Below are positions 2,009-61,549 of a stretch of DNA of 64,000 nt, in pieces. Position 1 is the stretch's first letter, and each line of letters starts with the position of its first letter. This DNA comes from a virus: positions 1 to 64,000 of IMG/VR virus record IMGVR_UViG_3300037246_001058. One strand, given 5' to 3'. The notes under the pieces were generated by a model, which searched no databases, was not told where the DNA came from, and saw only the letters and a program-made list of their open reading frames with translations. The position numbers were made by a program, and so were the translations under genes.

Positions 2009-2929
2009 TTAGACGACAGAGCCACTACCAAAGATACCAAGGTAGTCCGAAACGCCGAACGAGTATCGTTCCCGCGCCTTGTATCGAACATTGCCCGAGT
2101 CGAAGTCGCCGTCCATGTCGGTACGGAGAGCAACGCGCTCGAAGTGCTTCATGCCATCCGGCACATCAGTGATCAGGAACCAGTTTTTGCTGTTTGCCGA
2201 AGTGATGTAGTGGTTGACGAAGTGTCCTTCAGGAACGGTTCCCGAAGTACGCAGCGCATTGAGGTCGTTGTCCGCAGTTCCCGATCGTTGATCGGACTTG
2301 AGGATACGTGCAGCAGTGAACTGGTTGTTGCTGTGGATGATGAGCCGCTTGGGCAGCGCCGCGACCAGAAGGCCACGCTCATCCGTGAAGGCAGCAATGT
2401 CGATCGCAGCCTGCTCAAGACTGGTCTCAGAGAGATCAGCCGGAGTGGCCAGGACGTTCGTCACAGTTCCGCCGCCAGCGAGAGAACGGGAGGCGCAGAG
2501 CGCAGCCCCGTCACCAGCACTGAAGTTGGTTGTGGCGAAGGCATTGTTCAGAGGGAAGATCCCCTTGGTCTGCTTCGTGTGAACCATCGCGCGTGCGAGG
2601 GCCTTTGTGTATCGCGCGGAGAGAGCGTCGTAGAGATTATCTTCGACAGCTTCCTCTGTGATCGCAAAACCCATCGCGATAGTTTCGTGCGTGAAACGAG
2701 CCGTGTAGTTCTCGCCCGCACTGTCGTACGCGATCGAAGAGCCTTCGCTCTTGACCGGAGCCGCACCGAAGCCCGTGAGCTTCACTTCCTCTTCGAAACT
2801 ACGTCCCGAAGATTCAGGCGATCCGTAGATCGCGACGCACTCGTCTGCGTATTCCTTGTACTCCAACCCAAACAAGCCATTCAGGCCCGGGAGGAGTTCC
2901 TTCATCATTTGCGCTCGTGAGATTGCCAT
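2009..2929 (-). CDS. major capsid protein
   Basis: 306 aa from ATG with a strong AAGGAG site. No signal peptide. The sequence pattern (KELLPGLNGLFGLEY near the N-terminus, FTHETIAMGFAITEEAVEDN at about 92-111, DLSETSLEQAAIDIAAFTDERG at mid-protein) resembles HK97-fold capsid proteins of the podovirus/Mu-gpT-like type; typical length is 300-400 aa. It sits after scaffold and decoration-type genes and before a strong terminator, the usual place for the most expressed virion gene. A ClpP-like protease gene at 61 kb could be the maturation protease, but no cleavage site is evident here. Confidence 0.85.
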   Translation of the reverse strand: MAISRAQMMKELLPGLNGLFGLEYKEYADECVAIYGSPESSGRSFEEEVKLTGFGAAPVKSEGSSIAYDSAGENYTARFTHETIAMGFAITEEAVEDNLYDALSARYTKALARAMVHTKQTKGIFPLNNAFATTNFSAGDGAALCASRSLAGGGTVTNVLATPADLSETSLEQAAIDIAAFTDERGLLVAALPKRLIIHSNNQFTAARILKSDQRSGTADNDLNALRTSGTVPEGHFVNHYITSANSKNWFLITDVPDGMKHFERVALRTDMDGDFDSGNVRYKARERYSFGVSDYLGIFGSGSVV

Positions 2930-2946: not shown

Positions 2947-3543
2947 TTAGATGCCTGCGCTCGAACCGAAGATCGAAATATCGGGGTCAATGATGACCAG
3001 AGCATGGGTGAAAGTGGCGCCGACCGCGCCCTTCGCGCCGTCAGTACCGTCCTCGTTGATAACGCCGACAACCTTGATGTTGGCAACAGTCGTGGCACCA
3101 GAAGTGCCTGTATCGAGAACCTGACCGGACATTCCGGTCGTGGCGTTGCCCGCATTGAATTCGACGTCAAACCGAAGTCCAACTTCCGTGCGGGTGATCG
3201 TGGTGTCCACATCCGAGTCCGCGCACTTGACCTTGTAGATCTGGTGCGGGTTCACGTTTACGAACGCAACTGAGTCGTCCTGGGTGATCGTGGAAGTATA
3301 CTTGTTCGACCAGACTCGCTGTCCGTCCGCATTCGTATATTCACAACCAACAAAGACACCAACAATCGCCACGTTCGTGACTGCCGACATGGCAACCACT
3401 GAGCCGTCATCTACCATCTTGACGAGGTCGCCCTCGAAGATGTCCGTAGATTCGGCACTGGCAATCTTGTACGGAAGAGTCGGGGCTGAGCCCGCTCCTA
3501 CGCCTGCGCTTGAGTAGACTCGAAAGCCTCCTTCGCTAGCCAT
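2947..3543 (-). CDS. head structural protein (decoration/stabilisation candidate)
   Basis: 198 aa, ATG start with AGGATAC upstream. The sequence is beta-rich (many Val, Thr, Asp, Gly), with no membrane segment. A segment reading DIFEGDLVKMVDDGSVV is typical of small beta-barrel head decoration proteins. It lies 17 bp upstream of the capsid gene in the same operon, the usual position for a head decoration or stabilisation protein. Function is inferred from position and composition. Confidence 0.6.
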   Translation of the reverse strand: MASEGGFRVYSSAGVGAGSAPTLPYKIASAESTDIFEGDLVKMVDDGSVVAMSAVTNVAIVGVFVGCEYTNADGQRVWSNKYTSTITQDDSVAFVNVNPHQIYKVKCADSDVDTTITRTEVGLRFDVEFNAGNATTGMSGQVLDTGTSGATTVANIKVVGVINEDGTDGAKGAVGATFTHALVIIDPDISIFGSSAGI

Positions 3544-3596: not shown

Positions 3597-4151
3597 CTAC
3601 TTCTTGCCAAAAGAAACGTCAGTATGCTTCTCTGAAAACTTCCGCATAGTGGCGTTTTGATCGCTGAGATAGCCCTTGTCAACTGCATCGACTTGGATAC
3701 GGCTCTGCTCGTCTGCAATCAATCGGATTTGGTCTCCGATGTGACTGGGACGCTTGCAAAGCATCATCCCGCCAAAGACAACATTGCCTTCGGCGTGACC
3801 GATATCAGATACGACCATGCCCAGTTCGGGGCACTCTTCGGCCGTAACAGGTTCCCATCCGTCACGCAGGGCTTGAGAGTGGTTCATGTTGTCCACTGTC
3901 CCACCTGACGAAACCCGAACGTACCTGAAGTCTTGTCCATGTACGGGATTCGGATCGGGAAGAAGCCGCGAAGGCTTCCATACCATCTCACGTTCAGTGT
4001 GTTCTCTGTCTTCCAGATCACGGGGTGTGCGCGAATTGTTGTCTTCTTTGGTTTCCACTGGAGTCTCCTTGGCCTCTCTCTTGGGGGCCGCTTTGGATTT
4101 GGTACTAGGAGCTTTGTCCTTGTACAGGTCTGCCATGTCGTCGATTGCCAT
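3597..4151 (-). CDS. hypothetical head-operon protein
   Basis: 184 aa. The N-terminal 55 residues are charged and low-complexity (Lys/Glu/Asp); the C-terminal two thirds looks globular (motifs VHGQDFRYVRVSSGG and GDQIRLIADEQSR). Its ATG overlaps the stop of the scaffold gene by one base, so translation is probably coupled. The position between scaffold and decoration protein suggests a head assembly or minor head role. No family recognised. Confidence 0.75.
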   Translation of the reverse strand: MAIDDMADLYKDKAPSTKSKAAPKREAKETPVETKEDNNSRTPRDLEDREHTEREMVWKPSRLLPDPNPVHGQDFRYVRVSSGGTVDNMNHSQALRDGWEPVTAEECPELGMVVSDIGHAEGNVVFGGMMLCKRPSHIGDQIRLIADEQSRIQVDAVDKGYLSDQNATMRKFSEKHTDVSFGKK

Positions 4152-5134
4152 CAGCTGTCACCCAGCTTCAGGGTCTCACGGGCATAGACCTCCAGTGGAA
4201 TGTTCAGGCGTTTCGCGAGAGACACCTGTGTTTCGGTCAGCTGCACTTTGCGTGGAGATCCACTGCCAGCGGACTGGCGAGAGGATGGTGCGACCACGGT
4301 CGGGGCGGGAGTGGCAGCGGGCTCCGATGTGCCCTCACTCCCTGCGTCTGCGGGAAAGACCGCAGACATTCGTCTGTCGATTTCTATATAGTATGCTGGA
4401 CTTCCTACAATTACGCCAGAACTATTTTGATTATTCTGCATTTCCTCGTGAATTGCCATAGCGTACGAGCGTTTAGGAAGGTCTGTGTCGAACCATTCGT
4501 TACGTCCCTTCCAGCTCTCGAAGTCCCTATCGACCGCAGGAGCCTGGAGCTGCTGAGCTGCCTGCTCAACCGGTCCTGGCTGGGTCTGTGTCGGCGTCTG
4601 CCCTGGCTGTACCGGGACTGACGGCGTGTAGGACTCCGCCTCGTGCTCTTCGATCTGTGCTCGATTGAGAGCCATTTGAGCGGTTCCGAGTCGAGCGGGG
4701 TCACCCTCCTCCACAGCCGCCTGGTACTCCTGCTGAGCCGCTACGACTGCGCCCTTGGTCCGTTCCCGGACTTCGCTCACGAGGACGTTTTCGCCCTCCG
4801 CCATGAGCGTACGCAGCTGACCATTCTCTGTCTGCTGTGCCTGAGCGAAGCGAATCGCCTCCTCCTGCATGCGCTCTGCCGCTTCTCGACCACGACGTTC
4901 ATCGTTGATTTTGAAGGTTAGCTTGTCAATCCGCTTGCGTACACGAGCCGAAACAGCCTGAAGCTCCTCGTCCGTGGGGTCACCGTCCTCATTGGGGGCC
5001 TCCGTTCCGGGCTCCCTCTGGTCTTCCGGCGCACGTTCATCGACTACTTCGATTTCGTACTCGCCCACCTTGAACTGATTGTCCAGTGGGGACGTCTCGT
5101 TGTCCTGTCCTTCTTCGTCGTTCAGATCGCTCAT
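4151..5134 (-). CDS. putative capsid scaffolding protein
   Basis: 327 aa. Acidic N-terminus (Asp/Glu/Pro-rich, residues 1-60), a long helical stretch rich in Glu, Gln, Arg and Ala (about 60-165, likely coiled coil), a Gln/Pro linker and a helical C-terminus with basic residues (SPRKVQLTETQ). This acidic-coiled-basic layout and the place just upstream of capsid genes fit internal scaffolds, whose basic C-terminal helix binds the capsid protein. The start overlaps the GroES-like stop (ATGA). Confidence 0.65.
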   Translation of the reverse strand: MSDLNDEEGQDNETSPLDNQFKVGEYEIEVVDERAPEDQREPGTEAPNEDGDPTDEELQAVSARVRKRIDKLTFKINDERRGREAAERMQEEAIRFAQAQQTENGQLRTLMAEGENVLVSEVRERTKGAVVAAQQEYQAAVEEGDPARLGTAQMALNRAQIEEHEAESYTPSVPVQPGQTPTQTQPGPVEQAAQQLQAPAVDRDFESWKGRNEWFDTDLPKRSYAMAIHEEMQNNQNSSGVIVGSPAYYIEIDRRMSAVFPADAGSEGTSEPAATPAPTVVAPSSRQSAGSGSPRKVQLTETQVSLAKRLNIPLEVYARETLKLGDS

Positions 5135-5526
5135 ACTCGTGTAACCGCCCGTGGATCGTCGATCACCGCAAGTACGGTGTCGTCATTGATGATGCGGAAC
5201 TCCATGCCGTGTACGCCGAATCGCGTACCAGCATACGAAGACAGGATGATCCAATCACCCTCCTTGCACCAGGCTCCATCAGGAAACTTGGCCTTGTCCG
5301 CGTATGCGTCACTTCCAAGCTTCAAGACACAGAACACAATGCTCGCATCGTTCTCTTTATCCACGCGCTCGCCCGGGATGACAATGCCACCCTTCGTCTT
5401 CTCTTCCACCTCTTTCGGTGCGACGAGGATTCTATATCCAGTCGGTACCGGGAGCTGGCTTGCTTTCACTGTGTTGCCGTACGCCTTATCGGAATACGAT
5501 GCAACACCTGCTGTTGCTGCTGACAC
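5131..5526 (-). CDS. GroES-like co-chaperonin (Cpn10 family)
   Basis: 131 aa from a GTG start with a good GGAGG site 8 nt upstream. The core from about residue 28 matches Cpn10: PTGYRILVAPKEVEEKTKGG (start of the fold and the mobile-loop region), IVIPGERV, then KEGDWIILSSYAGT and FRIINDDTVLAVID at the C-terminus, as in GroES (about 97 aa). The N-terminal extension of about 25 residues is extra. Phage co-chaperonins (T4 gp31, RB49 CocO) replace GroES on the host GroEL to fold large capsid proteins. Placement between a Lys-rich protein and scaffold, in the capsid operon, fits that role. Confidence 0.85.
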   Translation of the reverse strand: MSAATAGVASYSDKAYGNTVKASQLPVPTGYRILVAPKEVEEKTKGGIVIPGERVDKENDASIVFCVLKLGSDAYADKAKFPDGAWCKEGDWIILSSYAGTRFGVHGMEFRIINDDTVLAVIDDPRAVTRV

Positions 5527-5590
5527 TCTGCGTGCCTCCTATGTTTGCAAACGGCATTCGGGGGAGGTTGCCGTTGTTGCCCTCTTGTTG

Positions 5591-5815
5591 CTACTTCTTC
5601 TTTGCTGCCTTCTTCTTTGCTGCCTTCTTCTTTGCTGCCTTCTTCTTCACTACCCTCTTGCGGTCAGGCATCTGCTTTGCCGCGTTCCGGTTGCCCGGCT
5701 CTCCATCTTGGCTCTTAGGCTCGTTGCCCAGGGCCGAGAACTTTTCCCAGAAGGTCTTCTTCTTGGGCGTGGCGGGGGCCTTTTTCTTGGACGCTGCCTT
5801 TTTCTTTGTTGCCAT
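5591..5815 (-). CDS. Lys/Ala-rich basic protein with AAKKK repeats
   Basis: 74 aa, about one third Lys. Both ends are AAxKKK runs (C-terminal KKAAKKKAAKKKAAKKK), and the middle (residues 20-45, TFWEKFSALGNE) is more ordinary. The repeats resemble histone H1-like tails and could bind DNA or the acidic scaffold. Encoded between the co-chaperonin and a small gene next to portal. No enzymatic function expected. Confidence 0.7.
   Translation of the reverse strand: MATKKKAASKKKAPATPKKKTFWEKFSALGNEPKSQDGEPGNRNAAKQMPDRKRVVKKKAAKKKAAKKKAAKKK
5595..5639 (-). repeat. three exact 15-bp tandem repeats
   Basis: Unit TTCTTCTTTGCTGCC (plus strand) three times in a row, with a partial fourth copy, encoding the KKAAK repeats at the end of the Lys-rich protein. 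Such runs expand and contract by slippage. Confidence 0.9.
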
Positions 5816-11944: not shown

Positions 11945-12021
11945 TGGAGCCCTCGGAGGGAGTCGAACCCCCGACCCGCTGCTTACAAGGCAGCCGCTCT
12001 GGCCAGCTGAGCTACAAGGGC
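11945..12021 (-). tRNA. tRNA-Thr (anticodon UGU)
   Basis: 77 nt with all four arms: acceptor GCCCTTG pairing with CGAGGGC, D arm GCTC...GAGC, anticodon stem GCTGC/GCAGC enclosing CTTGTAA (anticodon TGT), T arm with TTCGACT, discriminator T and encoded CCA. It decodes ACA. It is a single-copy tRNA at the start of the late operon; phage tRNAs usually supplement host pools or replace cleaved host tRNA. Confidence 0.95.
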
Positions 12022-12115: not shown

Positions 12116-12250
12116 TTAGCTGTAACCAGCCCTCCCCCAAACCTTGTCGGGATTGCTTCCTTGCTGCACCGGCCGAATCCATGCCCGGAGCACTGCTCTC
12201 ATGAACACTCTCGGCTGTTCTGCCTCCTGCTCGATGCCGATCTCATCCAT
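12116..12250 (-). CDS. small basic protein upstream of tRNA-Thr
   Basis: 44 aa from ATG at 12250: MDEIGIEQEAEQPRVFMRA, then WIRPVQQGSNPDKVWGRA. The sequence is protein-like with an acidic start and basic end, but the ribosome site is weak (AAGAA). It lies on the late-operon strand before the tRNA. May be a real mini-gene or chance. Confidence 0.4.
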   Translation of the reverse strand: MDEIGIEQEAEQPRVFMRAVLRAWIRPVQQGSNPDKVWGRAGYS

Positions 12251-20153: not shown

Positions 20154-20383
20154 AGAAAGACCTTACTATAGAGGACACTATCACTATCCCAAAGGAGTGG
20201 GTCCCGACCCTCATCAAGGTCATGGGATACGTGACCGACGACCTCGTGGATGACGGGAGCTTCTACAACGACGGAGAGCGCCAGCTCATCAAGGATGTGA
20301 CCGCCATATCCAGGGGCCTGGCCATGAGGATGAAGGACGCACCACTCACGGTGCTGCCTCGGACGGGAGAGAACGATGACTGA
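20150..20383 (+). CDS. hypothetical protein upstream of RtcB
   Basis: 77 aa. ATG abuts the palindrome; no normal ribosome site, so translation is probably by stop-start coupling (ATGA). Helical and acidic (VTDDLVDDGSFYNDGERQ). Overlaps the RtcB start by 8 nt, so likely co-translated with it. No family recognised. Confidence 0.6.
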   Translation: MKKDLTIEDTITIPKEWVPTLIKVMGYVTDDLVDDGSFYNDGERQLIKDVTAISRGLAMRMKDAPLTVLPRTGENDD

Positions 20384-21590
20384 TTACAGAGCGTACTACA
20401 ACGCACTCCAGAAGGTGCCAATCAAGGCGTTCACCAAAGGAGTACCGTTCGAAGGGGCAGCACTAGAGCAGGCTGTCAACGTGGCACGACTGCCATTTAT
20501 CCACAAGCACGTGGCTGTGATGCCCGACGTGCACGCTGGGTATGGGTGTACGGTAGGCTCTGTCATCCCAACAGTGGGGGCTATCATCCCCGCTTGTGTT
20601 GGTGTTGACATCGGGTGTGGCATGATGGCTATTCGTACGGGCATGACCTCGCACGACCTGCCGGAGGACCTCGCCGAGTTCAGGGCTGCCATCGAGCACA
20701 AGGTACCCGTCGGTCGCAGTGCCTACGACAACAAGCACATGCCACGGTTGGCCAGGAGTATATGGACCAACCTATTGGCTGGAGGCTATAACAACATCAT
20801 ACACAGGCACCCCGCCATCAAGCATGAGAAGGTATCGTACCAGATGGGTACGCTGGGCGGAGGCAACCACTTCATCGAGCTGTGTCTCGACGAGGAGGAC
20901 AGGGTATGGATCATGCTACACTCGGGTAGCAGGGGTGTTGGCAACAGGATAGGCACCTACTTCACACGACTGGCGCGCGAGGACATGGAGAGATTCTTCA
21001 TCCACCTGCCAGACCGTGACCTGGCCTACTTCCCGGAGGGCACGCCGAACTTCGATGACTACATCGAGGCCATGGACTGGGCCCAGGCGTACGCCCTGCA
21101 TAACCGAAGGACCATGATGGACACCACCATCATGACACTGGCGGACACGTTTGGGTTGCCGTTCGAGAAGTTGATGGCTCATGACCGGGCCATCAACTGT
21201 CATCACAACTACACCACGAGAGAGCAGCACTTCGGCAAGAACGTGTGGCTCACCCGTAAGGGGGCAGTGTGTGCAAGGCAGGGTGTGATGGGTATCATAC
21301 CTGGCTCGATGGGTGCCAAGTCATTCATCGTCGAGGGCAAGGGCAACCCGGACTCGTTCGACTCGTGCTCGCATGGTGCGGGACGGTTGATGAGTCGGAC
21401 CAAGGCGAAGGCCACGTTCACGGTGGCGGACCACGTCAAGGCAACGGAAGGGGTGGAGTGCCGCAAGGATGAGGGCGTGCTCGATGAGACGCCGGGAGCT
21501 TACAAAAATATAGATGATGTGATGGCAGCACAGGATAGCCTTGTGTCCATCAAGCACACGCTCAAAGCTGTGCTCTGTATCAAGGGTTAG
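20376..21590 (+). CDS. rtcB: RNA ligase RtcB
   Basis: 404 aa, matching the length of bacterial RtcB (about 408). All signature blocks are present: MPDVHAGYGCTVGSVIP, VGVDIGCGM (metal Cys), GTLGGGNHFIEL, LHSGSRGVGN, NCHHNYTTRE, RQGVMGIIPGSMG and SFDSCSHGAGR with the His that is guanylylated. RtcB joins 2',3'-cyclic phosphate or 3'-phosphate ends to 5'-OH ends using GTP and Mn2+. In a phage it could reseal tRNAs or other RNAs cut by host toxin or anticodon nucleases. No archease gene is seen. GAGAAC lies before the ATG. Confidence 0.95.
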   Translation: MTDYRAYYNALQKVPIKAFTKGVPFEGAALEQAVNVARLPFIHKHVAVMPDVHAGYGCTVGSVIPTVGAIIPACVGVDIGCGMMAIRTGMTSHDLPEDLAEFRAAIEHKVPVGRSAYDNKHMPRLARSIWTNLLAGGYNNIIHRHPAIKHEKVSYQMGTLGGGNHFIELCLDEEDRVWIMLHSGSRGVGNRIGTYFTRLAREDMERFFIHLPDRDLAYFPEGTPNFDDYIEAMDWAQAYALHNRRTMMDTTIMTLADTFGLPFEKLMAHDRAINCHHNYTTREQHFGKNVWLTRKGAVCARQGVMGIIPGSMGAKSFIVEGKGNPDSFDSCSHGAGRLMSRTKAKATFTVADHVKATEGVECRKDEGVLDETPGAYKNIDDVMAAQDSLVSIKHTLKAVLCIKG

Positions 21591-41816: not shown

Positions 41817-42818
41817 GTGGGATACATTTCATACACTCACGTAGAGAGACTCGGGCATCCCAACGTGGATGGCCTGCTCATTGGCAAGTGCTACGTCTTC
41901 CCGAAGATCGACGGCACCAACGCTGTCATCTGGACCGATGGCGGCACTGGCAAGATTGGCACCGGCAGCCGTAAGCGAGACATGTCTGACTACGAGACAG
42001 ACGACAACCACGGGTTCCGGCATGCCATGGACTTTCGCTGGAATGCTGGTGAGATGGACTGGCTTGAGGGCACGTACGACGACGTGTACTGCCCCATCTT
42101 CTACGGAGAATGGCTGGTGCCGCACTCGCTGCGCACCTACCGTGACGATGCATGGCGCGAGCTGTACATCTTCGACGCACGCTGCCCCGAGACGTTCCGC
42201 TACTTGCACTACGACACCTGGGCCCCGCAGATACGTGCGATGGGGGCCAACGTCATCGAGCCACTGCAAATCATTCAGGATCCAACGGAGTCTGATATCA
42301 ACCATGTGCGCGACCGGTCCAACACCTACCTGATCAAGGATGGCGAGGGACTTGGCGAGGGCGTGGTCGTCAAGAACTATGACTTCGTAAACAAGTTTGG
42401 CAAGACAGTGTGGGGCAAGGCGGTACGCAACGACTTCAAGGAAAAGAACCTGCGTGAGATGGGGAGCCCCGAACGCAACGGTACCAAGCAGTTCGAGAAG
42501 GAGATCGCCGAGATGTACGTGACCAAGGCATTCGTGGAGAAGAGTAGGACAGGCGTAGAGCACGCCATGATAAAGGAGATTAGTTACGAGGACGAGGCGA
42601 CTTACGAGGACTGCATGTCTCTGGAAAACAGAAGGCTATTTCTCGAATCGAAGCGTGGCCGACTGATCCCTCGCCTGCTTCAGACGGTGTACCATGACCT
42701 GATCGACGAGGAGACTGCGAGCTTCGTGAAGAAATTCAAGGAGCCGACCATCAACTTCAAGGTGCTGAGGCAGTTCACCATTGCACAGGTGAAGCGGCAT
42801 GCGGGGGACCTTTTCTAA
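41817..42818 (+). CDS. ATP-dependent RNA ligase (Rnl2-like)
   Basis: 333 aa from GTG with GAGGGATGAGAG upstream. Nucleotidyltransferase motifs: I KIDGTN (Lys adenylated) at about 30-35, Ia GTGSRKR, IIIa FYGEWL, IV EGVVVKNYD, V GKAVRNDFKEK. Length is close to T4 Rnl2 (334 aa). It seals 3'-OH to 5'-phosphate ends in RNA, the complementary chemistry to RtcB. No polynucleotide kinase-phosphatase was recognised nearby. Possible role: repair of nicked tRNA or other RNA. Confidence 0.85.
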   Translation: MGYISYTHVERLGHPNVDGLLIGKCYVFPKIDGTNAVIWTDGGTGKIGTGSRKRDMSDYETDDNHGFRHAMDFRWNAGEMDWLEGTYDDVYCPIFYGEWLVPHSLRTYRDDAWRELYIFDARCPETFRYLHYDTWAPQIRAMGANVIEPLQIIQDPTESDINHVRDRSNTYLIKDGEGLGEGVVVKNYDFVNKFGKTVWGKAVRNDFKEKNLREMGSPERNGTKQFEKEIAEMYVTKAFVEKSRTGVEHAMIKEISYEDEATYEDCMSLENRRLFLESKRGRLIPRLLQTVYHDLIDEETASFVKKFKEPTINFKVLRQFTIAQVKRHAGDLF

Positions 42819-43253: not shown

Positions 43254-43450
43254 TGAAGTGTGACCACTTGGACTTCTGCTCGCACTGCAAGCATCAGCGG
43301 GACGTGGAAGAGCAGGCTCTGTGGAAGCGCATCAGTGAGCTATCTCATGAGCTTGAGACAGTTAGCCGGGCGCTGGTTCACTCTGACCAGATGGCAGTGC
43401 GTGAGCACCAAGAGCTGGGCTCACTTCGGCGCCAGATCGAGGACCTCTAG
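43253..43450 (+). CDS. small Cys/coiled-coil protein
   Basis: 65 aa. CDHLDFCSHCKHQ at the N-terminus suggests a metal site; the rest is a coiled coil. Its TAG overlaps the TAG of the convergent giant gene (CTAG). Confidence 0.6.
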   Translation: MKCDHLDFCSHCKHQRDVEEQALWKRISELSHELETVSRALVHSDQMAVREHQELGSLRRQIEDL

Positions 43451-46400
43451 CCCTGGGCCTTCCGCTCGTACATCCTCTCTTCAATCTTCCTGGCGCGCAG
43501 TAGGACCCTGCGCTCCTGCTCCTCGATGCGATCCAGCCCCTTCCGCTGTTGATCCCGAGACATCTTGCCTCCCACGTTGAGGCGAATCGCTTCCTTCCGC
43601 TTCCGAAACTTGGTCATCTGCTTCTTGATGGGCTTCATCTGATTCGCTGCGACTAGCTCCGCGCGATTGTCCTTGCGGATCTGCATCCTGTCCTGCGGGG
43701 TACGCGCCGCGTTCAGCATCGTTGGCGCACGGAACAGCATGTCACTGAACTCATAGTAGTCTGACATAAGTCCCTGGTTGCCAGCGTCAACGTGGAGACG
43801 GTTGATGATCGGGAGCTTGATGACCTCCCCCGGGGGGCGCACGATGCCCACTCCACCGAACCTTAGCACGGTGTCGAACAGGCCCCAAAGCCCAGCACCT
43901 AGGCCACCGGTCATGGTGCCTACTATCTGGTCGATATTCTGCGGGCTGACGTCCATGGTCGGGCCAGTGACCTTGCCAATGAGCTTGGCCTGCTCAGTGG
44001 TGCGTGACGTGTGCTTGTCCGCTGCGTCGAGCCCCTCCTGATGCCGCTTGTTGATGGCTCCGCCACCGAACAGCTTCTGGTTCGCAGCTATCTCGTAGAA
44101 GGGCTTCATGATCTGGGGCATGCGCTGCCCGTCGCCAAGCCACCCGTCGTACGTCGGCTTCATGGTCCGCTCAAGCTCACGCCCAGCCTTGAGCGTGTCG
44201 CCTCTCGCCACCTGCACGATGTTCCGTGCGATCTGCTGCGGTAGCTGCTTCAATAGCCAGCCAACACCATGGGGTGCGGGGATGGTGATGTACCCGCCCA
44301 TGCCATCGGGAAGGATGTAGTTGTTGTCCTTCTTGTACTGGCTCAGCGTCTCGTAATCTTCATCGTCCATGAGCATCGTCTCAAGCAGGGCGCCCGCCAC
44401 CATCAGGAAGGCAGCTCTCCGCCACACGTTCTTGTAGAACGCTGCGTCCGTGGCTGAGCTGTCGAGTGTGGTCTGTCGGATGCCTGTCATGGAGCGGTAC
44501 AGTACGTCAGTACCCTGGATGAAGGCATTGAAGAAGGGTACCATGGCAGTGTACATACTGAGGTACTGGTTCTTGCCCTTAGTAGAGAAGTTCAGCACTT
44601 CCTTGGCCTGGTGGATGGCCCGGTTGTTGGCGATGATGTCCACGTCCTCGGGTCGATACTTCCCGGAGGCGTTGAGCTTGTCCGTCTCGATCTTGAGCGT
44701 GTGCTCGTACACTATCTCACGAGTGGATGACTCAGAGAAGGCCGAGAATCTTCCCGCCGCTTCCCATGTCCTCTTCAGCCTGTTGTCGCGCTTGTCAGCA
44801 ATCTTCCGTCCGGCTAGTGCTGCGATCTGCTTGGCTCCTCGTGCCGAGCTGACGTCATCAACGCCCTGGACTGCGCCATGATCGCGTAGCATAGTGCCGG
44901 AGGGGGTGAGCTTGGTACGCTTGCCGGTGCCCTTCAGTGCCCCGCGCTGCTGCTGGTCGATCGCGAAGTTGCTGAACGACCGGCCGAACGCCCGCATGAT
45001 GATAGGGATGGGTCCGAAGATGGCCGGATCACCCTTCATGGCACCGTACTTCAGCCACGCTGCGGTTGCATCACGGACAAGGTTGGGCACGATGAAGCTT
45101 GGGTCACGGGTGACCGTCTCGCGGAGGAGCTGAGTCGGGAGCTGGGTCATCCACTTGAGGTACTTGTCGTTCCGCATAGTTTCACCGATGCTCTGGCCCC
45201 ACTCGCCTTCGAGTGCGCTGAACATAAGGTCATCGTCGAGTATGTAGTACTCGTCCACGCCCTTTACCCTGATCTTCGTTACAGCACGCACGCCCTGGGC
45301 GAGGGCGGTGGCCTTGTCCTTGACACGGCGGGCTGCCTTGAGTGCGACTTCGTTGCGCACGGCACGTGTGCGTGCCACGTTGGTCATGCCTGAGGTGATG
45401 GCCCCGACGTAGTTGGACACGGCGGCCTCGATGGGATCAACCTTCTCTTGGTTGCCGGAGCTTTCGTTCTCTGAGGACCATCCACGGAACCGCTTGTGCG
45501 GGCCCTTGTACGTTATGTCGCCCAGTAGGGAGCCCTGAATACCAGCCTGTTCACGCTGCCGTGCCATCTGCTCGCTGTAGTTGGTGTCTCCCTCGAAGTC
45601 ACGATAGAACTCGATATAGTCACTGTTCTCCAGCCACAGTGACGCCTCTTCCTGGCTGAGGACACCCGTTGCGACAAGGAACTCGACCGTCTTCTCGTTG
45701 AGCTGATTGAGGTTGTGTACAGCCACTGCGATGCGTGCGCCTCGGTCACCATCGTTGAGGATCTGCATCCATTCCATCTCTTCCTCTTGGGTGTGAGGTA
45801 CGATCGGTGGCTTGCCGTCGAGGATGGCTCTTTGCCTGAGGTTGTGGGAGCGCAGCCCTGAACGGTAGTTGTTGAGGAGCCGGTTTTCCTCTACGGTCAG
45901 TGCTGTGCGGGCGAGGAGCATGCCGCCTGTCATGCCGGACACGTCCTCCTTGTACACTTCCGAGCTGAACATCTTCTGCTCGATCTTGCCAGTGGCAGGG
46001 TTGTATACGGACATCTCCGTGGTATCATTCGTGAAGTCAAACTCCTTGGCTTCATAGATGAGGGCGCCCTCGTGCTCACCCTGTGCGTTGGTGATCGCAG
46101 TGGCCTGAATGTAGCCGGACACGAGCGATTCACTCACCATGTCAGCGGCGCGAGCGTATGCACGCATGGCAGCGATTGCGGACATTTCGTCCTCGATGAT
46201 GTTGCCGTCCTGATCCATCAACTGACCCTCTCGGGTGACGATGCGATCGAACTTGTCCACTACGTTGATACGGAAGCGTTGGAAGACATTCTCTGCGTCG
46301 AAGAAGCGATCGACTGCCTTGCTGAACTTGGCGAACAGCCCTCCCTTCGGTGGTCCCTCGTGCAGGCGTGCAGCGTTGCGCTCAACGGGTGACAGCTCGT

Positions 46401-49400
46401 CGATGGACAGGGCCACGCGCTCCGCCAGGCTGAGACGCTCTGCCTTGTCCGGGTTTTCGGATACGCGCACGCTCTCGGCCGTGACGCCAGGCCCACGCTT
46501 CTCGGGCAGGTTGTTCAGGGGGCCTACATCCTCTACTTCCTCTACAAAATTCTTGGTAGAGTCGAAGTGGTTGATGAGGTGGAACTCGGGGCCGTCGGGG
46601 CCGTCGTCAATGTAGTCGAATACGAAGGTTTGGGCCGTATCGCCCTTGCCGTTGGTGATGATGACGCGACCGGCACGCTCGACGTGCAGCGTGAGGGGTG
46701 AATCCTTGCCGAACTGGTCCTGTACGTACTTGCCCTGGACCTGCTTGCCAGTGATGCCGTCCCGGATCATCTTGGGGTTGAGCCCTGTGATGATCTCCAT
46801 CAGGTTGTTGAGATGCTTGCGCCATTGGGGGCTGTTTGCGTCCATGCGCTCGCCGCCGAACCCGCGCTGTGTCTCGGTATCCCACACGCCACGCTTGATG
46901 ACGACACGGGTGCTCCTGCCAAGCTCTCCATGCTGATTGGAGGGGATGTACCAGATGCCCTCTTGGTCGTACTGGGTGAGTGTGTCGCGAGCCGGGGAAT
47001 CCTTGGGCAAAGCGAGCTTCAGCCGGTCAATGACCCTGGCCTCAGCATAGGGGCTGACCTTCGCGATCTCAACCGCTGCGTCCTGGCTCTCTTGGAGGCG
47101 AATCTGTGCTTCGCGAGGGATCTGTGCGTTGGTGCCGGACACCACGTCCTCACCCTGCTGCCCGAGGTACTGCTCCCTCGTCTCCTGATTCAATCTGGAC
47201 AGTTCTAGCGCTCTCTCCTCTGCTTGCGCGCGTGAGTCGGGGTCGAGGCTTGCGACGAAGTCCACGTTCATGCTGCGGAGCTTCTTTGGGTCACCACCCT
47301 CAATGTCAGAGAACTCCGTCTCCCGAACCGGGAAGCCCTTCTCTCGGATGGGCTTAGTGAGGCTGGCCGGGTCCTCTTGTGCTGCCTTTACTGCGGCAGC
47401 GTCCTTCTGTGTGTTTTCGACTGCGACGACCTTGCCCGCCTTGTCCCGAACGATCCACTTTGACACCGGATTCTCGGATACGCCGAACTCCCGCCGTGTG
47501 GTGAGCACGTCTGGTACGTCAGCGTACAGATACTTGCCCTTTTCCTTCTTCAGGATGCCACGCGCCATGAGGTTGTCGCGGATCTGTTTGTACACTGAGC
47601 CAGGGATCTCTCCAGTGGCCTCGCGGAGCACCTCAAGAGAGGGAAACTCCCCGACGATCTCAATGCTGTTGCCCCTGGCATCCTCGGCAACCCGCACGCT
47701 ACTGGCAGACAGGTCTATGGCCACCTTGGCGACCTCGCGCAGCTCGTTGCTGGCCAGCTCGCGCATCGCGTCCAGCTCCACGCGGAAGGCTTGCTTCTTT
47801 GCTGCGTTCTTGCGGGTTGAGGTGGGCTGCGTGTCAACGAGGATCATGGTGCGGTCAACCATGCGCTTGATGATGGCGTCGGCACGTAGGCTGATGTGGT
47901 CAGCATGGCCAAAGATCGACTCTTCGTCCTTGATGATCGTCATGACCCTGCGCTTGAGCTGCGCGGCAGTGAGTGAGGCTATCTTCGCCTTGGCCAGCTC
48001 CTGCTCCAGTCGCTCTGCGACCTCGTAGGCCTCCCCGGTGCTGGTCATCGGGAGGGTGGTGTTCTGTCCGTCAGTGTCAATGGAGGATATGCGCTGATAC
48101 AGCTTCTCCATGTCCTGTGGCGTGGCCGCCTTGATGTTCGAGAGTCCGACTGTGTCCTTGACCAGCTTGTCGAAGGCGATCTTGGACTCCGGCGTGCTGT
48201 CGATGTCAATACCACGTGCCTGCGCAACAAGCTTGACGTCGGTCAGCGTGCGCTCCTGGCCAGTGATGCCCGAAACCTCTGCTTTTGCCCTCTCATCCTC
48301 CTCAAGGATAGCAAGAGCTTCCTCGTCCTTGGATTCCTTGGTCAGCTCCTCTTGGATGAGCCTGGTTTGGGTCTGCTCTTCCACTTCCTTGCGCTGCGTG
48401 TTGGCGTTTTCACGCTCGACCGACAGGCGCTTGGACTCGGCCACGTATTCCTTGTGATCCGCCACCTTCTTGTTGGCTGCCACGTCACGCGCATTCTGTG
48501 TGTAGCTCGTGCCTCCGGCATACCCTGAGAAGGGCAGTGATCCAGCGAGTGTGGCTGCAATAACCTCCATGTACTCGTGCATGGCTGCTGCGTCGGTGGC
48601 GCTGACGGGGAGCCCGGCCGCTGCCCGCTCCATAATCTGCTGCCCAAGCTCGGTGCCTGTCTCTGTGGCCAGGGACTTGCCAGCTGCTGCCGCACCTGCT
48701 CCCATGCTCTTTTGCCATGCCTGCTTGACGATGCCAGCCTTGGCTCTGATGGCTGCCTGCACTGATGCGTTGCCAGCCTTGCCACCGATGCCGAACGCAC
48801 GCATACCGATCTTCTCGGACGCTGTCTGGCCAGCCGCTGCTGCGACGGACTCATAGAGGCGAACGTCTTCGACGTCGAGGATGCCTGCATCGTGTCCGCG
48901 CGCAAGGTTGTCAGCCAGGAACTGGGTGAACATCAAGGCGCCAGTGGCAGATCCTGCGATTAGGCCCGCAAGCGCCGCAGTCGGTGCGGCGATTAGGCCC
49001 GCGCTCACGCCTGCACCAGCGATGACGGCAGTGCCTACGACGGGGCCCCACGTGAGGGTGGTTCCGCCCAGCGTGGAGCCGATGCTGTTGGCTACGAAGT
49101 CGCCAGTCTCACTGACGCCGTGACCCACGCCCTCTGACCAGGCTTCCTTGACGGAATCCAGCGTTGGTGCATCCGGGTTGGTTGCGACACTCTTGCGTCC
49201 CAGCTCATCGAAGTCTTCCTTCGTCTGATCGTATAGCTCTTGGTTATCAGTGAGGTGGGCGGTGGCAATGTCGATGCCGGGCGCAAGTTTGGCCGTGGAC
49301 TGGTCGAAGCCAGACTCATAGGCCTGCCCGAGGCGCCCAAAGAAGCCAGGCTCATCGGACTCATTCTCTTCCGGCTTGACGTACGCCATGCTGTCGGCGT

Positions 49401-49503
49401 GCTCGGCGTTCAGAAACTTTAATACGTCCTCATCAGAGGTGCCCTTATTAAAGCTTACCTTCTTGCCATCGGGGAGGGTATACGTGTCGTGCAGTTCACC
49501 CAT
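43447..49503 (-). CDS. giant polyvalent/ejection-type virion protein
   Basis: 2018 aa. N-terminus LHDTYTLPDGKKVSFNKGTS, then Ala/Gly-rich possible membrane-active helices at about 150-195 (GTAVIAGAGVSAGLIAAPTA), long charged helical regions (about 320-560), and a C-terminal part with LLRETVTRDPSFIVPNLVRD, resembling large polyvalent protein domain 38 (LPD38). Such proteins are injected with phage DNA. No transglycosylase motif seen. Last gene of the leftward late operon; its stop overlaps that of a rightward gene. Confidence 0.75.
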   Translation of the reverse strand: MGELHDTYTLPDGKKVSFNKGTSDEDVLKFLNAEHADSMAYVKPEENESDEPGFFGRLGQAYESGFDQSTAKLAPGIDIATAHLTDNQELYDQTKEDFDELGRKSVATNPDAPTLDSVKEAWSEGVGHGVSETGDFVANSIGSTLGGTTLTWGPVVGTAVIAGAGVSAGLIAAPTAALAGLIAGSATGALMFTQFLADNLARGHDAGILDVEDVRLYESVAAAAGQTASEKIGMRAFGIGGKAGNASVQAAIRAKAGIVKQAWQKSMGAGAAAAGKSLATETGTELGQQIMERAAAGLPVSATDAAAMHEYMEVIAATLAGSLPFSGYAGGTSYTQNARDVAANKKVADHKEYVAESKRLSVERENANTQRKEVEEQTQTRLIQEELTKESKDEEALAILEEDERAKAEVSGITGQERTLTDVKLVAQARGIDIDSTPESKIAFDKLVKDTVGLSNIKAATPQDMEKLYQRISSIDTDGQNTTLPMTSTGEAYEVAERLEQELAKAKIASLTAAQLKRRVMTIIKDEESIFGHADHISLRADAIIKRMVDRTMILVDTQPTSTRKNAAKKQAFRVELDAMRELASNELREVAKVAIDLSASSVRVAEDARGNSIEIVGEFPSLEVLREATGEIPGSVYKQIRDNLMARGILKKEKGKYLYADVPDVLTTRREFGVSENPVSKWIVRDKAGKVVAVENTQKDAAAVKAAQEDPASLTKPIREKGFPVRETEFSDIEGGDPKKLRSMNVDFVASLDPDSRAQAEERALELSRLNQETREQYLGQQGEDVVSGTNAQIPREAQIRLQESQDAAVEIAKVSPYAEARVIDRLKLALPKDSPARDTLTQYDQEGIWYIPSNQHGELGRSTRVVIKRGVWDTETQRGFGGERMDANSPQWRKHLNNLMEIITGLNPKMIRDGITGKQVQGKYVQDQFGKDSPLTLHVERAGRVIITNGKGDTAQTFVFDYIDDGPDGPEFHLINHFDSTKNFVEEVEDVGPLNNLPEKRGPGVTAESVRVSENPDKAERLSLAERVALSIDELSPVERNAARLHEGPPKGGLFAKFSKAVDRFFDAENVFQRFRINVVDKFDRIVTREGQLMDQDGNIIEDEMSAIAAMRAYARAADMVSESLVSGYIQATAITNAQGEHEGALIYEAKEFDFTNDTTEMSVYNPATGKIEQKMFSSEVYKEDVSGMTGGMLLARTALTVEENRLLNNYRSGLRSHNLRQRAILDGKPPIVPHTQEEEMEWMQILNDGDRGARIAVAVHNLNQLNEKTVEFLVATGVLSQEEASLWLENSDYIEFYRDFEGDTNYSEQMARQREQAGIQGSLLGDITYKGPHKRFRGWSSENESSGNQEKVDPIEAAVSNYVGAITSGMTNVARTRAVRNEVALKAARRVKDKATALAQGVRAVTKIRVKGVDEYYILDDDLMFSALEGEWGQSIGETMRNDKYLKWMTQLPTQLLRETVTRDPSFIVPNLVRDATAAWLKYGAMKGDPAIFGPIPIIMRAFGRSFSNFAIDQQQRGALKGTGKRTKLTPSGTMLRDHGAVQGVDDVSSARGAKQIAALAGRKIADKRDNRLKRTWEAAGRFSAFSESSTREIVYEHTLKIETDKLNASGKYRPEDVDIIANNRAIHQAKEVLNFSTKGKNQYLSMYTAMVPFFNAFIQGTDVLYRSMTGIRQTTLDSSATDAAFYKNVWRRAAFLMVAGALLETMLMDDEDYETLSQYKKDNNYILPDGMGGYITIPAPHGVGWLLKQLPQQIARNIVQVARGDTLKAGRELERTMKPTYDGWLGDGQRMPQIMKPFYEIAANQKLFGGGAINKRHQEGLDAADKHTSRTTEQAKLIGKVTGPTMDVSPQNIDQIVGTMTGGLGAGLWGLFDTVLRFGGVGIVRPPGEVIKLPIINRLHVDAGNQGLMSDYYEFSDMLFRAPTMLNAARTPQDRMQIRKDNRAELVAANQMKPIKKQMTKFRKRKEAIRLNVGGKMSRDQQRKGLDRIEEQERRVLLRARKIEERMYERKAQG

Positions 49504-51146: not shown

Positions 51147-52058
51147 TTACCCGAATGCCTGCTGCACTGCTGCGAGGCCAGTTCCCCATCCCGCCATCTG
51201 GGATGCCAGTCCTGGCTGTGCTGAAGTGGTGGTGGTCGTTCCCATCTGGGATGCTGGCAAGCCACTTAGGATGCCAGACATGAAGCTGAGCTGCTGCTTG
51301 GGATAGTTGACTTCGTCCCAGTACTCATTCCTTGCGAGGTCAAGCTCTCGCTGGAGCATCTCTCGTTCGATCGCACCCGACCGACCAAGCTCGTTGGTCA
51401 TCGACTGCTCGCGCTGGAGGCTGGCCGTTCCGAGTGCGCTTGCCTCCGCACCGAGTGCGTTGTAGTTGGCTGCACCCTGTCCGAGGCCCTGCATCTTGGC
51501 GTCACGGTCAGTGTAGAACCCCTGCTGAGCCTGGTTCCAGTTGTCCAGCTCGCCCTGGTTACGGATGTCACCGAGGAGCTGTCCGCGCTCGCCTTCGAGG
51601 AAGGCATTCTCAAGCCCGACACGGTACGAACCGATCGACCCGCCGCGTGCGACTGAGCCAGCCTGATCCTGATTGATGCGCCGGTCGAAGGACTGGTCGG
51701 CCTCGCGGAGCTGCCTCTGCGTCACTGCTTCGAAGTACGGGTTGCGGCGGGCTTCGTACTGCTCGGCACCAAACTCGCTGTTGGCTACGTCCCACGTCTT
51801 GTCCGTGAGGCCTGCCGACTTGGAGAGCTGCTCGGCGGCGAACTGTCCAGCGACGTCCCCCCGGTTGAACATCTCTTCCCGCGCGTTGTTGGCGGCAAGC
51901 TCCTGCGGAGTCAGCCCAGCAATCTGCTGACCTTCGTACGCCTGGTATCCGGCAGGATCATAGGCCACTGCCTGAGCCTTGCCGATGAGATCCTTATGTG
52001 CTTGCTGTGCCCACCACGGGAGCGATCCACTCGTCTTGCCGTCTGCGCCACCACCCAT
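51147..52058 (-). CDS. internal virion protein
   Basis: 303 aa. Gln/Glu/Ala-rich helical protein (QQIAGLTPQELAANNAREEM, ... RQLREADQSFDRRINQDQAG). Gly-rich ends. Between two other virion-type genes; resembles podovirus ejection proteins by composition. Specific role unknown. Confidence 0.65.
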   Translation of the reverse strand: MGGGADGKTSGSLPWWAQQAHKDLIGKAQAVAYDPAGYQAYEGQQIAGLTPQELAANNAREEMFNRGDVAGQFAAEQLSKSAGLTDKTWDVANSEFGAEQYEARRNPYFEAVTQRQLREADQSFDRRINQDQAGSVARGGSIGSYRVGLENAFLEGERGQLLGDIRNQGELDNWNQAQQGFYTDRDAKMQGLGQGAANYNALGAEASALGTASLQREQSMTNELGRSGAIEREMLQRELDLARNEYWDEVNYPKQQLSFMSGILSGLPASQMGTTTTTSAQPGLASQMAGWGTGLAAVQQAFG

Positions 52059-60862: not shown

Positions 60863-60969
60863 TTTCTCTCAATTCCTTCACTGATCACGACGAATGCCGC
60901 GATAAAAAAACATATAATCAGAATGAATGGTAGCGTGATCCAGAGGAAGATTTCCCCCAGCCTACGCAA
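60853..60969 (-). CDS. possible small membrane protein
   Basis: 38 aa from TTG (no clear ribosome site), one strong span (IFLWITLPFILIICFFIAAF), basic ends. It overlaps the protease stop and the connector start. Confidence 0.4.
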   Translation of the reverse strand: MRRLGEIFLWITLPFILIICFFIAAFVVISEGIERKWR

Positions 60970-61549
60970 CCACGTCCGCCAGCCCCGCCTCGACAATTTC
61001 TTTCCCACCAAGCAGCCAGTACTCTGCCGTCTTCTCTGTTTTAGCCTTCCACCACTTGGCATCGTTCGGCGTGTACCTAGCCATCAGCTCTCCCCAGTAC
61101 ACGTGGTAGAAGTCATCTACCTTGCGTCGATCCTTGGCTGCCCGGTATCCCAGATCACCCGAAGAGCCCGTGGACTCGTGTGACATAAGGATGGTAGACT
61201 CTGCTACGATTCTATGATGTCCGCATGCCAGGATCAGCACACCAGCTGAGCAGACCTGCCCGTAGGCATAGATCGTGACGTTGCCATGGCGCCGGATGGT
61301 GTCATGAATCGCGAACATGCTGACCTCGTCCCCGCCAGGCGTGCTGAGGTGCAGCTCGATGGGTTCCTTCCCGAGGTGCTCAACCACCGTGTGGAACCAC
61401 TCCCCCGTGTCTTCCTCGATGACGTCAGTGAGGTGGATGATTCTCTTCTTCCAGTCCAGCCCCAGATTGATGACGTGGCTGAGGAGAGGGGCAGGTACCA
61501 GGCCTACTTCCTCATCGTCGATAACGATATCGAAGATCCCCTTATGCAT
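60962..61549 (-). CDS. ClpP-like serine protease (prohead protease candidate)
   Basis: 195 aa. LHLSTPGGDE, GQVCSAGVLIL (Ser101) and ILMSHESTG (His124) are the ClpP-type catalytic blocks, with the Asp near 170 likely in the region PNDAKWW. Phages use ClpP-like enzymes to process scaffold and capsid. This copy is far from the capsid gene in this window but probably adjacent on a circular map. Overlaps the metallophosphoesterase stop. Confidence 0.8.
   Translation of the reverse strand: MHKGIFDIVIDDEEVGLVPAPLLSHVINLGLDWKKRIIHLTDVIEEDTGEWFHTVVEHLGKEPIELHLSTPGGDEVSMFAIHDTIRRHGNVTIYAYGQVCSAGVLILACGHHRIVAESTILMSHESTGSSGDLGYRAAKDRRKVDDFYHVYWGELMARYTPNDAKWWKAKTEKTAEYWLLGGKEIVEAGLADVVA

Follow-up and report, generated by a model that had tools for sequence, protein, structure and literature searches.

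A GroES/Cpn10 homologue in a phage head module and its link to one capsid type

Why does a phage carry a GroES gene among its capsid genes, and which proteins might that gene serve? The question is raised by a reading frame in the window, the 64,000-nucleotide stretch formed by positions 1 to 64,000 of IMG/VR virus record IMGVR_UViG_3300037246_001058. A preliminary description had called this frame, which encodes 131 amino acids from a GTG start, Cpn10-like, and profile and structure searches bore this out: the product matched the Cpn10 family of Pfam (E = 9.2e-13; 48.5 bits against a cut-off of 21.1), the PHROG family "co-chaperonin GroES" (3.4e-16) and 19 distinct PDB sequences at E<=1, the best at 9.7e-10. 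The same GTG start was scored in a second contig (L011), which equals the window at 12249 of 12251 bases.

Table 1. GroES gene, its parts and the neighbouring head genes, in positions of the window
Feature	Positions	Strand	Basis
Phage GroES/Cpn10 co-chaperonin gene	5131..5526	-	Pfam PF00166, PHROG 3188, AF2 model compared with GroES chains
Ribosome-binding site AGGAGG	5535..5540	-	8-base spacer to GTG, from sequence
N-terminal extension, about residues 1-23, predicted mostly disordered	5458..5526	-	pLDDT and comparison with 18 cellular GroES
Mobile-loop span, residues 38-63	5338..5415	-	alignment
GroEL-contact tripeptide I48-V49-I50	5377..5385	-	alignments
Roof segment, residues 72-89, AYxDxxRFPxGxWCK-like	5260..5313	-	conservation; assigned by alignment to GroES
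C-terminal tail, residues 123-131, DPR-type	5134..5160	-	comparison with cellular GroES
ATGA overlap, GroES stop / putative scaffold start	5131..5134	-	sequence
Putative scaffold, 327 aa, pI 4.5	4151..5134	-	position and acidity only; PHROG 28737, function unknown
Conserved module protein, 184 aa	3597..4151	-	PHROG 36003; synteny
198-aa module protein directly before the capsid gene	2947..3543	-	position
Major capsid protein, 306 aa, 32.9 kDa	2009..2929	-	PF25209 7.7e-10; PHROG 371 3.6e-12
Small lysine-rich protein, 74 aa, pI 10.8	5591..5815	-	sequence
Small acidic protein, 64 aa	5815..6009	-	sequence
Portal protein, 868 aa	6010..8616	-	PHROG 1216 4.1e-19
Terminase large subunit, 509 aa	8626..10155	-	PF17289 2.2e-12; PHROG 38 7.3e-101

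The predicted fold agrees with this assignment. An AlphaFold (AF2) model built from a 75-sequence alignment had a mean pLDDT of 85.6, with values <50 at residues 1-3 and 6-22. Compared with solved GroES chains, the model reached Z scores of up to 10.2 (rmsd 3.1 over 94 residues with 8wuc_a); chains of T4 gp31 scored 8.2 and 7.5, and unrelated barrels about 6. Alcohol-dehydrogenase-type chains also matched at Z of about 6, which we take as reflecting the shared barrel of the model. The single-chain model thus displays the GroES beta-barrel, and the Cpn10 fold and the mobile loop, on whose presence the assignment had been made to depend, are both there (Z 10.2; loop retained). These data confirm that the gene encodes a GroES/Cpn10 homologue. 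The family itself is not new, since a structure library holds many viral proteins already named co-chaperonin GroES, and the window protein is a further member of a family annotated in several phages, real and not rare.

As described, the gene lies upstream of the putative scaffold and capsid genes, on the same strand (Table 1), the scaffold label being given by place and acidity only. The GroES stop overlaps the scaffold start, an arrangement that makes translational coupling of the two genes possible. The AF2 model of the capsid protein is weak (mean pLDDT 66.5), and its Foldseek matches are HK97-fold capsids. That the 198-aa protein is a cement protein is only a guess; in DSL-LC04 the gene annotated as cement comes after the capsid gene, unlike the 198-aa gene of the window. 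The lysine/alanine-rich 74-aa protein encoded directly upstream of GroES carries KKAA-type repeats and had no match in Pfam or PHROG. A reading frame matching head maturation protease families (60962-61549, minus strand; PHROG 94, 1.3e-15) lies far from the capsid gene.

The place of the gene proved nearly fixed when followed in both directions. In a GroES-anchored set of 80 viral loci, a scaffold relative follows GroES in all 73 loci that reach 1 kb further (L011 counted, its genes overlapping), and the capsid gene does so in all 51 that extend 3.3 kb beyond it; of the 45 loci with 3 kb of sequence on the upstream side, 44 have a portal gene 0.2-2.5 kb ahead of GroES. Exceptions to this order are L061, with no upstream portal match, RW/L009, with no scaffold match at that sensitivity, CRP-902 (L008), with no portal match in the 9 kb before GroES, and MW202675, where extra small genes separate GroES from the capsid gene. 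The reciprocal, capsid-anchored set, which avoids searching with GroES itself, is made up of the 80 best matches among at least 598 stretches, with a bias towards close relatives. GroES ends 1.9-2.3 kb upstream of the capsid gene in 66 of these 80 contigs; the remaining 14 stop before the slot, with no more than 2117 bases between their end and the start of the capsid gene.

Co-occurrence gave the same picture. All 21 annotated records holding this capsid contain a Cpn10 gene, 18 of them in the slot (13 viewed directly, five placed by match positions; QDWS535, MW202675 and MW202545 have an annotated GroES there) and three elsewhere. Fifteen of the 21 also match the window GroES by tblastn, and a Pfam scan of 14 of the 21 records detected one Cpn10 in each. 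These records do not amount to 21 independent cases, since they are related and include near-copies (three of 65,014 bases, four from Caulobacter phages and the MW202601/MW202604 pair). By contrast, none of ten control phages with a homologous terminase but without this capsid carries Cpn10; the controls, absent from the 21, were hand-picked from 60 evenly spread rows of 2465 records. In the three records with the most distant capsids, the gene lies before the terminase (vir526) or beside an SSB gene (MW202601, MW202604), and such relocated copies argue against mere hitch-hiking. The vir526 record, whose Cpn10 gene occupies positions 1027-1383 of locus L174, is assigned to Methanomicrobiales. 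Taken together, reciprocal synteny and co-occurrence, set against the terminase control, strongly support a tie between GroES and the capsid module, and the placement in a capsid operon stands.

The Cpn10 sequence and fold, the retained mobile loop, the near-fixed place, the co-occurrence with this capsid and a record without a GroEL gene agree with a reading to which we give a probability of about 65%: the protein would be a capsid-module co-chaperonin, a seven-fold lid for host GroEL that helps to fold module proteins, most likely the major capsid protein. By analogy with T4 gp31, the phage subunits would assemble into the lid, bind host GroEL through the mobile loop at I48-V49-I50, and take the place of host GroES during expression of the structural genes. 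One or more capsid-module proteins, most likely the major capsid protein, would then fold in the capped GroEL chamber, and the phage-type roof and longer loop might tune the chamber or the release of the lid, rather than chamber size. No Cpn60 match was found in the 66,019-base record, which may be incomplete and holds one Cpn10, nor by Pfam scan in the records of 14 related phages. Within these records a phage-encoded GroEL was rejected as partner, and the partner would be the host's.

Does the capsid protein stand out as the client? A partial distance comparison over 28 complete loci, with 27 genomes kept, gave the strongest correlation of GroES with the portal (0.54; interval 0.22 to 0.74), a weak one with the scaffold (0.27; -0.06 to 0.50) and no partial link with the capsid protein (0.10; -0.14 to 0.37); values for the 184-aa protein and the terminase were -0.17 and 0.00. 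The portal alignment is the longest, and the comparison is therefore not diagnostic of the client, but it gives the capsid protein no special standing. To that extent it weighs against the co-chaperonin reading, as do the Cpn10 genes outside the capsid slot in three distant records and the 32.9-kDa capsid protein, well below the 56-kDa gp23 that needs gp31 according to the available text of PMC6318259. The displaced genes and the small capsid protein, together with the missing covariation, instead favour a general supply, in which the phage raises the co-chaperonin dose for late proteins at large, has no special client and uses the operon as a strongly expressed site. We consider this unlikely: Cpn10 goes with the capsid type, in 21 of 21 records, whereas none of 10 phages sharing only the terminase type has it, the slot is near-fixed, and the aromatic and cysteine residues of the phage roof occur in none of the 18 cellular GroES examined.

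This last point emerged from a comparison of the parts of the protein in phage and cellular GroES. From 157 complete GroES reading frames, 91 with <85% identity to each other were kept; 88 of these and the window protein formed the phage set of 89, compared with 18 cellular GroES, 15 from genome loci and three (L010, L178, L179) from records filed as phage. L178 and L179 are unannotated and were placed among the cellular proteins by sequence. L010, one of two matched records named "Acinetobacter phage MD-2021a", holds groES-groEL among metabolic genes and, judged by its gene content, resembles a stretch of bacterial chromosome. A narrower alignment (A2) contained 74 of the 91 and the window protein; it omits 12 proteins from annotated records, three encoded elsewhere than in the module, and two whose N-termini are very long (L108, L158).

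Phage and cellular GroES share the fold, the position of the loop and, around the roof, Gly71, Gly90 and mostly Asp91. The cellular proteins have hardly any terminal extensions, unlike the window family. Twenty-seven residues precede Pro28 in the window protein, against a phage median of 27 (4-69) and a cellular median of 4 (2-6); the N-terminal extension previously noted is thus real, but amounts to about 23 extra residues and not 25. It varies across the 89 phage proteins, is short in the most distant members, and includes a "QYSD/SYSD"-like stretch common to the window protein and its near relatives L013 and L091. The C-terminal tail has a median of 9 residues (3-15) in phages and 1.5 (0-8) in cellular GroES, and Pro125 is found in 85 of 89 phage proteins and no cellular one. 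The mobile-loop span is four residues longer, with a phage median of 26 (25-34) against 22 in 18 of 18 cellular proteins.

Within this otherwise variable loop lies the tripeptide I48-V49-I50, whose position we take to be that of the GroEL contact in GroES-GroEL structures. All 89 phage proteins have an aliphatic first contact residue, and 84 have a hydrophobic second one. The third is lysine in 48 and hydrophobic in just 37, against 18 of 18 in cellular GroES, so that across the family only the first two positions hold, while the tripeptide of the window protein is fully hydrophobic. With this lysine, many members may bind GroEL only weakly, which weighs against the co-chaperonin reading; the window protein has isoleucine there. 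On a tree of few columns whose bootstrap had not settled, the lysine appears as one change with weak support (66/87), and the window protein branches outside the sub-branch of lysine forms. The same tree, with the same limits, sets the 18 cellular GroES apart with support of 100/97, one odd row (L252) falling among them. As far as searched, the GroES proteins of this capsid module form a phage-only branch.

The roof, by contrast with the loop, is among the best conserved parts of phage GroES (median span 18 residues, against 17 in cellular proteins). Cys87, present in the window protein, occurs in 75 of 75 proteins of A2, 84 of 89 in the wider phage set and none of the 18 cellular GroES; Tyr or Phe at position 75 occurs in 88 of 89 phage proteins and again in no cellular one. 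Indeed, the phage residues Tyr/Phe75, Phe/Trp81, Pro82, Gly84, Trp86 and Cys87 were found in 0 of 18 cellular GroES.

A roof more conserved than the loop, a lysine at the third contact in 48 of 89 proteins, the overlap with the scaffold gene and the strongest distance correlation with the portal could all be expected of a former co-chaperonin turned assembly factor, a Cpn10 ring that no longer works with GroEL and instead helps to assemble the prohead, for instance together with portal or scaffold. We regard this as very unlikely, given that the first two contact residues are kept (89 and 84 of 89) inside an otherwise variable loop and that the window protein retains a fully hydrophobic tripeptide. 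Least probable of all, and highly improbable, is a take-over of host folding, in which the phage protein competes with host GroES and redirects GroEL or slows host folding with no phage clients: competition for GroEL is published for gp31 (PMC6318259, available text) and the altered contact residue of many relatives could change affinity, but a tie to the capsid module would not be expected of such a factor.

If the protein is a capsid-module co-chaperonin, does it modify the GroEL cage, as the preliminary description proposed? In T4-like phages, gp31 and RB49 CocO replace GroES on host GroEL, and gp31 is needed for folding of the capsid protein gp23 (PMC3012670, in the text available). The available part of PMC6318259 reports that gp31 has a lengthened mobile loop (22 residues against 16), lacks the roof and provides a somewhat larger chamber for the ~56-kDa gp23. 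The window GroES and gp31 are both phage-encoded and share the Cpn10 fold at 10-13% identity; the likeness to CocO is by description only. A longer loop is common to both (26 against 22 residues in the window family, measured on our own span; the gp31 figure is the published one) and could raise the lid a little. By contrast, going by the same partial text, gp31 is roofless whereas the window protein keeps a strongly conserved roof, and gp23 is ~56 kDa whereas the window capsid protein is 32.9 kDa. With roof kept and capsid protein this small, a T4-style enlarged cage is not indicated. Of the proposed modification, the longer loop stands and the enlargement is not supported; a changed roof surface is possible, and any change to the cage may concern that surface and the hold on GroEL more than the size of the chamber.

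The gene had also been thought uncommon in a short-tailed type phage. This is wrong: with the window GroES as query, tblastn retrieved 23 records in the phage collection, at least 591 viral-contig stretches encode relatives, and the 13 core genes that the available text of PMC9599517 gives for HTVC023P-type Podoviridae include co-chaperonin GroES; in CRP-901-type roseophages it is labelled in a figure legend of PMC10149686, also available in part. Rarity was thus rejected. The homologous GroES of the pelagiphages HTVC023P (gp36) and HTVC027P (gp55) share 43% and 45% identity with the window protein, and those of Roseobacter phages CRP-901 and CRP-902 share 31-32%. In all four phages the gene lies directly before scaffold-like and capsid genes and its product has an N-terminal extension, as in the window, the pelagiphage extensions being longer. 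The window shares with the HTVC023P-type capsid module both this slot and the phage-type roof with Cys87; the CRP-902 roof, by contrast, has no cysteine, Cys87 being absent from five of the 89 phage proteins. Matches in Planktothrix phages Pag-Yong1 and Pra-JY27 and Synechococcus phage MinM2, nearly identical to one another, reach 48.5% identity with the window protein over 98% of its length and occupy the same slot, but have the tripeptide IIR instead of IVI, and ~60 bases separate them from the next gene, which the window GroES gene overlaps.

A host origin of the gene was also considered and, on a roof-pattern scan of host genomes, rejected. In the species genome collection (genome_contigs), the roof pattern matched 54 stretches, 45 of which encode relatives, and all 45 adjoin phage module genes: 44 with capsid or portal, and L197 with the scaffold, 184-aa and 198-aa proteins. 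The titles of most of the records concerned contain MAG or bins, a few carry single-cell names, and the 45 therefore look like phage contigs. One Maricaulis bin (G007, with L192) has 11 Cpn10 matches on different contigs, perhaps from several phage contigs that were binned with it.

These results turn a supposed rarity into a rule: in a widespread phage group, the GroES gene accompanies one capsid type. Lid and capsid protein thereby become a testable pair outside T4 that could reveal other effects of a phage lid, since the T4 explanation of a bigger cage for a 56-kDa protein hardly applies. A more specific version, which we put forward tentatively as a rather doubtful possibility, is an entire HK97-type capsid lineage with an obligate dedicated co-chaperonin from a phage-only Cpn10 branch, its roof (Cys, Tyr, Phe, Trp) rebuilt for the client and its GroEL grip detuned by lysine in a sub-branch. 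Specificity would then lie in the inner surface of the lid and in its release and, unlike in T4, would owe nothing to a larger cage. Our literature search returned no experiment on any member of this GroES group. The roof signature and the contact lysine are not mentioned in the literature covered, part of it available as partial text, a coverage that did not extend to work on virioplankton chaperonins, reportedly the subject of Marine et al. 2017.

Beyond the head module, a scan of 20 larger reading frames gave matches to a DNA-ejection protein family (PHROG 4287; 51147-52058) and to virion structural families, with a weak match to a PHROG "tail protein" (1.7e-3); relatives of the capsid protein come from records classed as podo-, sipho- and myovirus-like. 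Two genes from the ejection protein match lies a 2018-aa reading frame (43447-49503, minus strand), perhaps a large virion protein. The window also encodes an RtcB-type tRNA splicing ligase (20376-21590, plus strand; PHROG 1075, 2.2e-144), an RNA ligase (41817-42818, plus strand; PHROG 548, 5e-28) and a tRNA-Thr(tgt) (11945-12021), which perhaps constitute an RNA-repair set.
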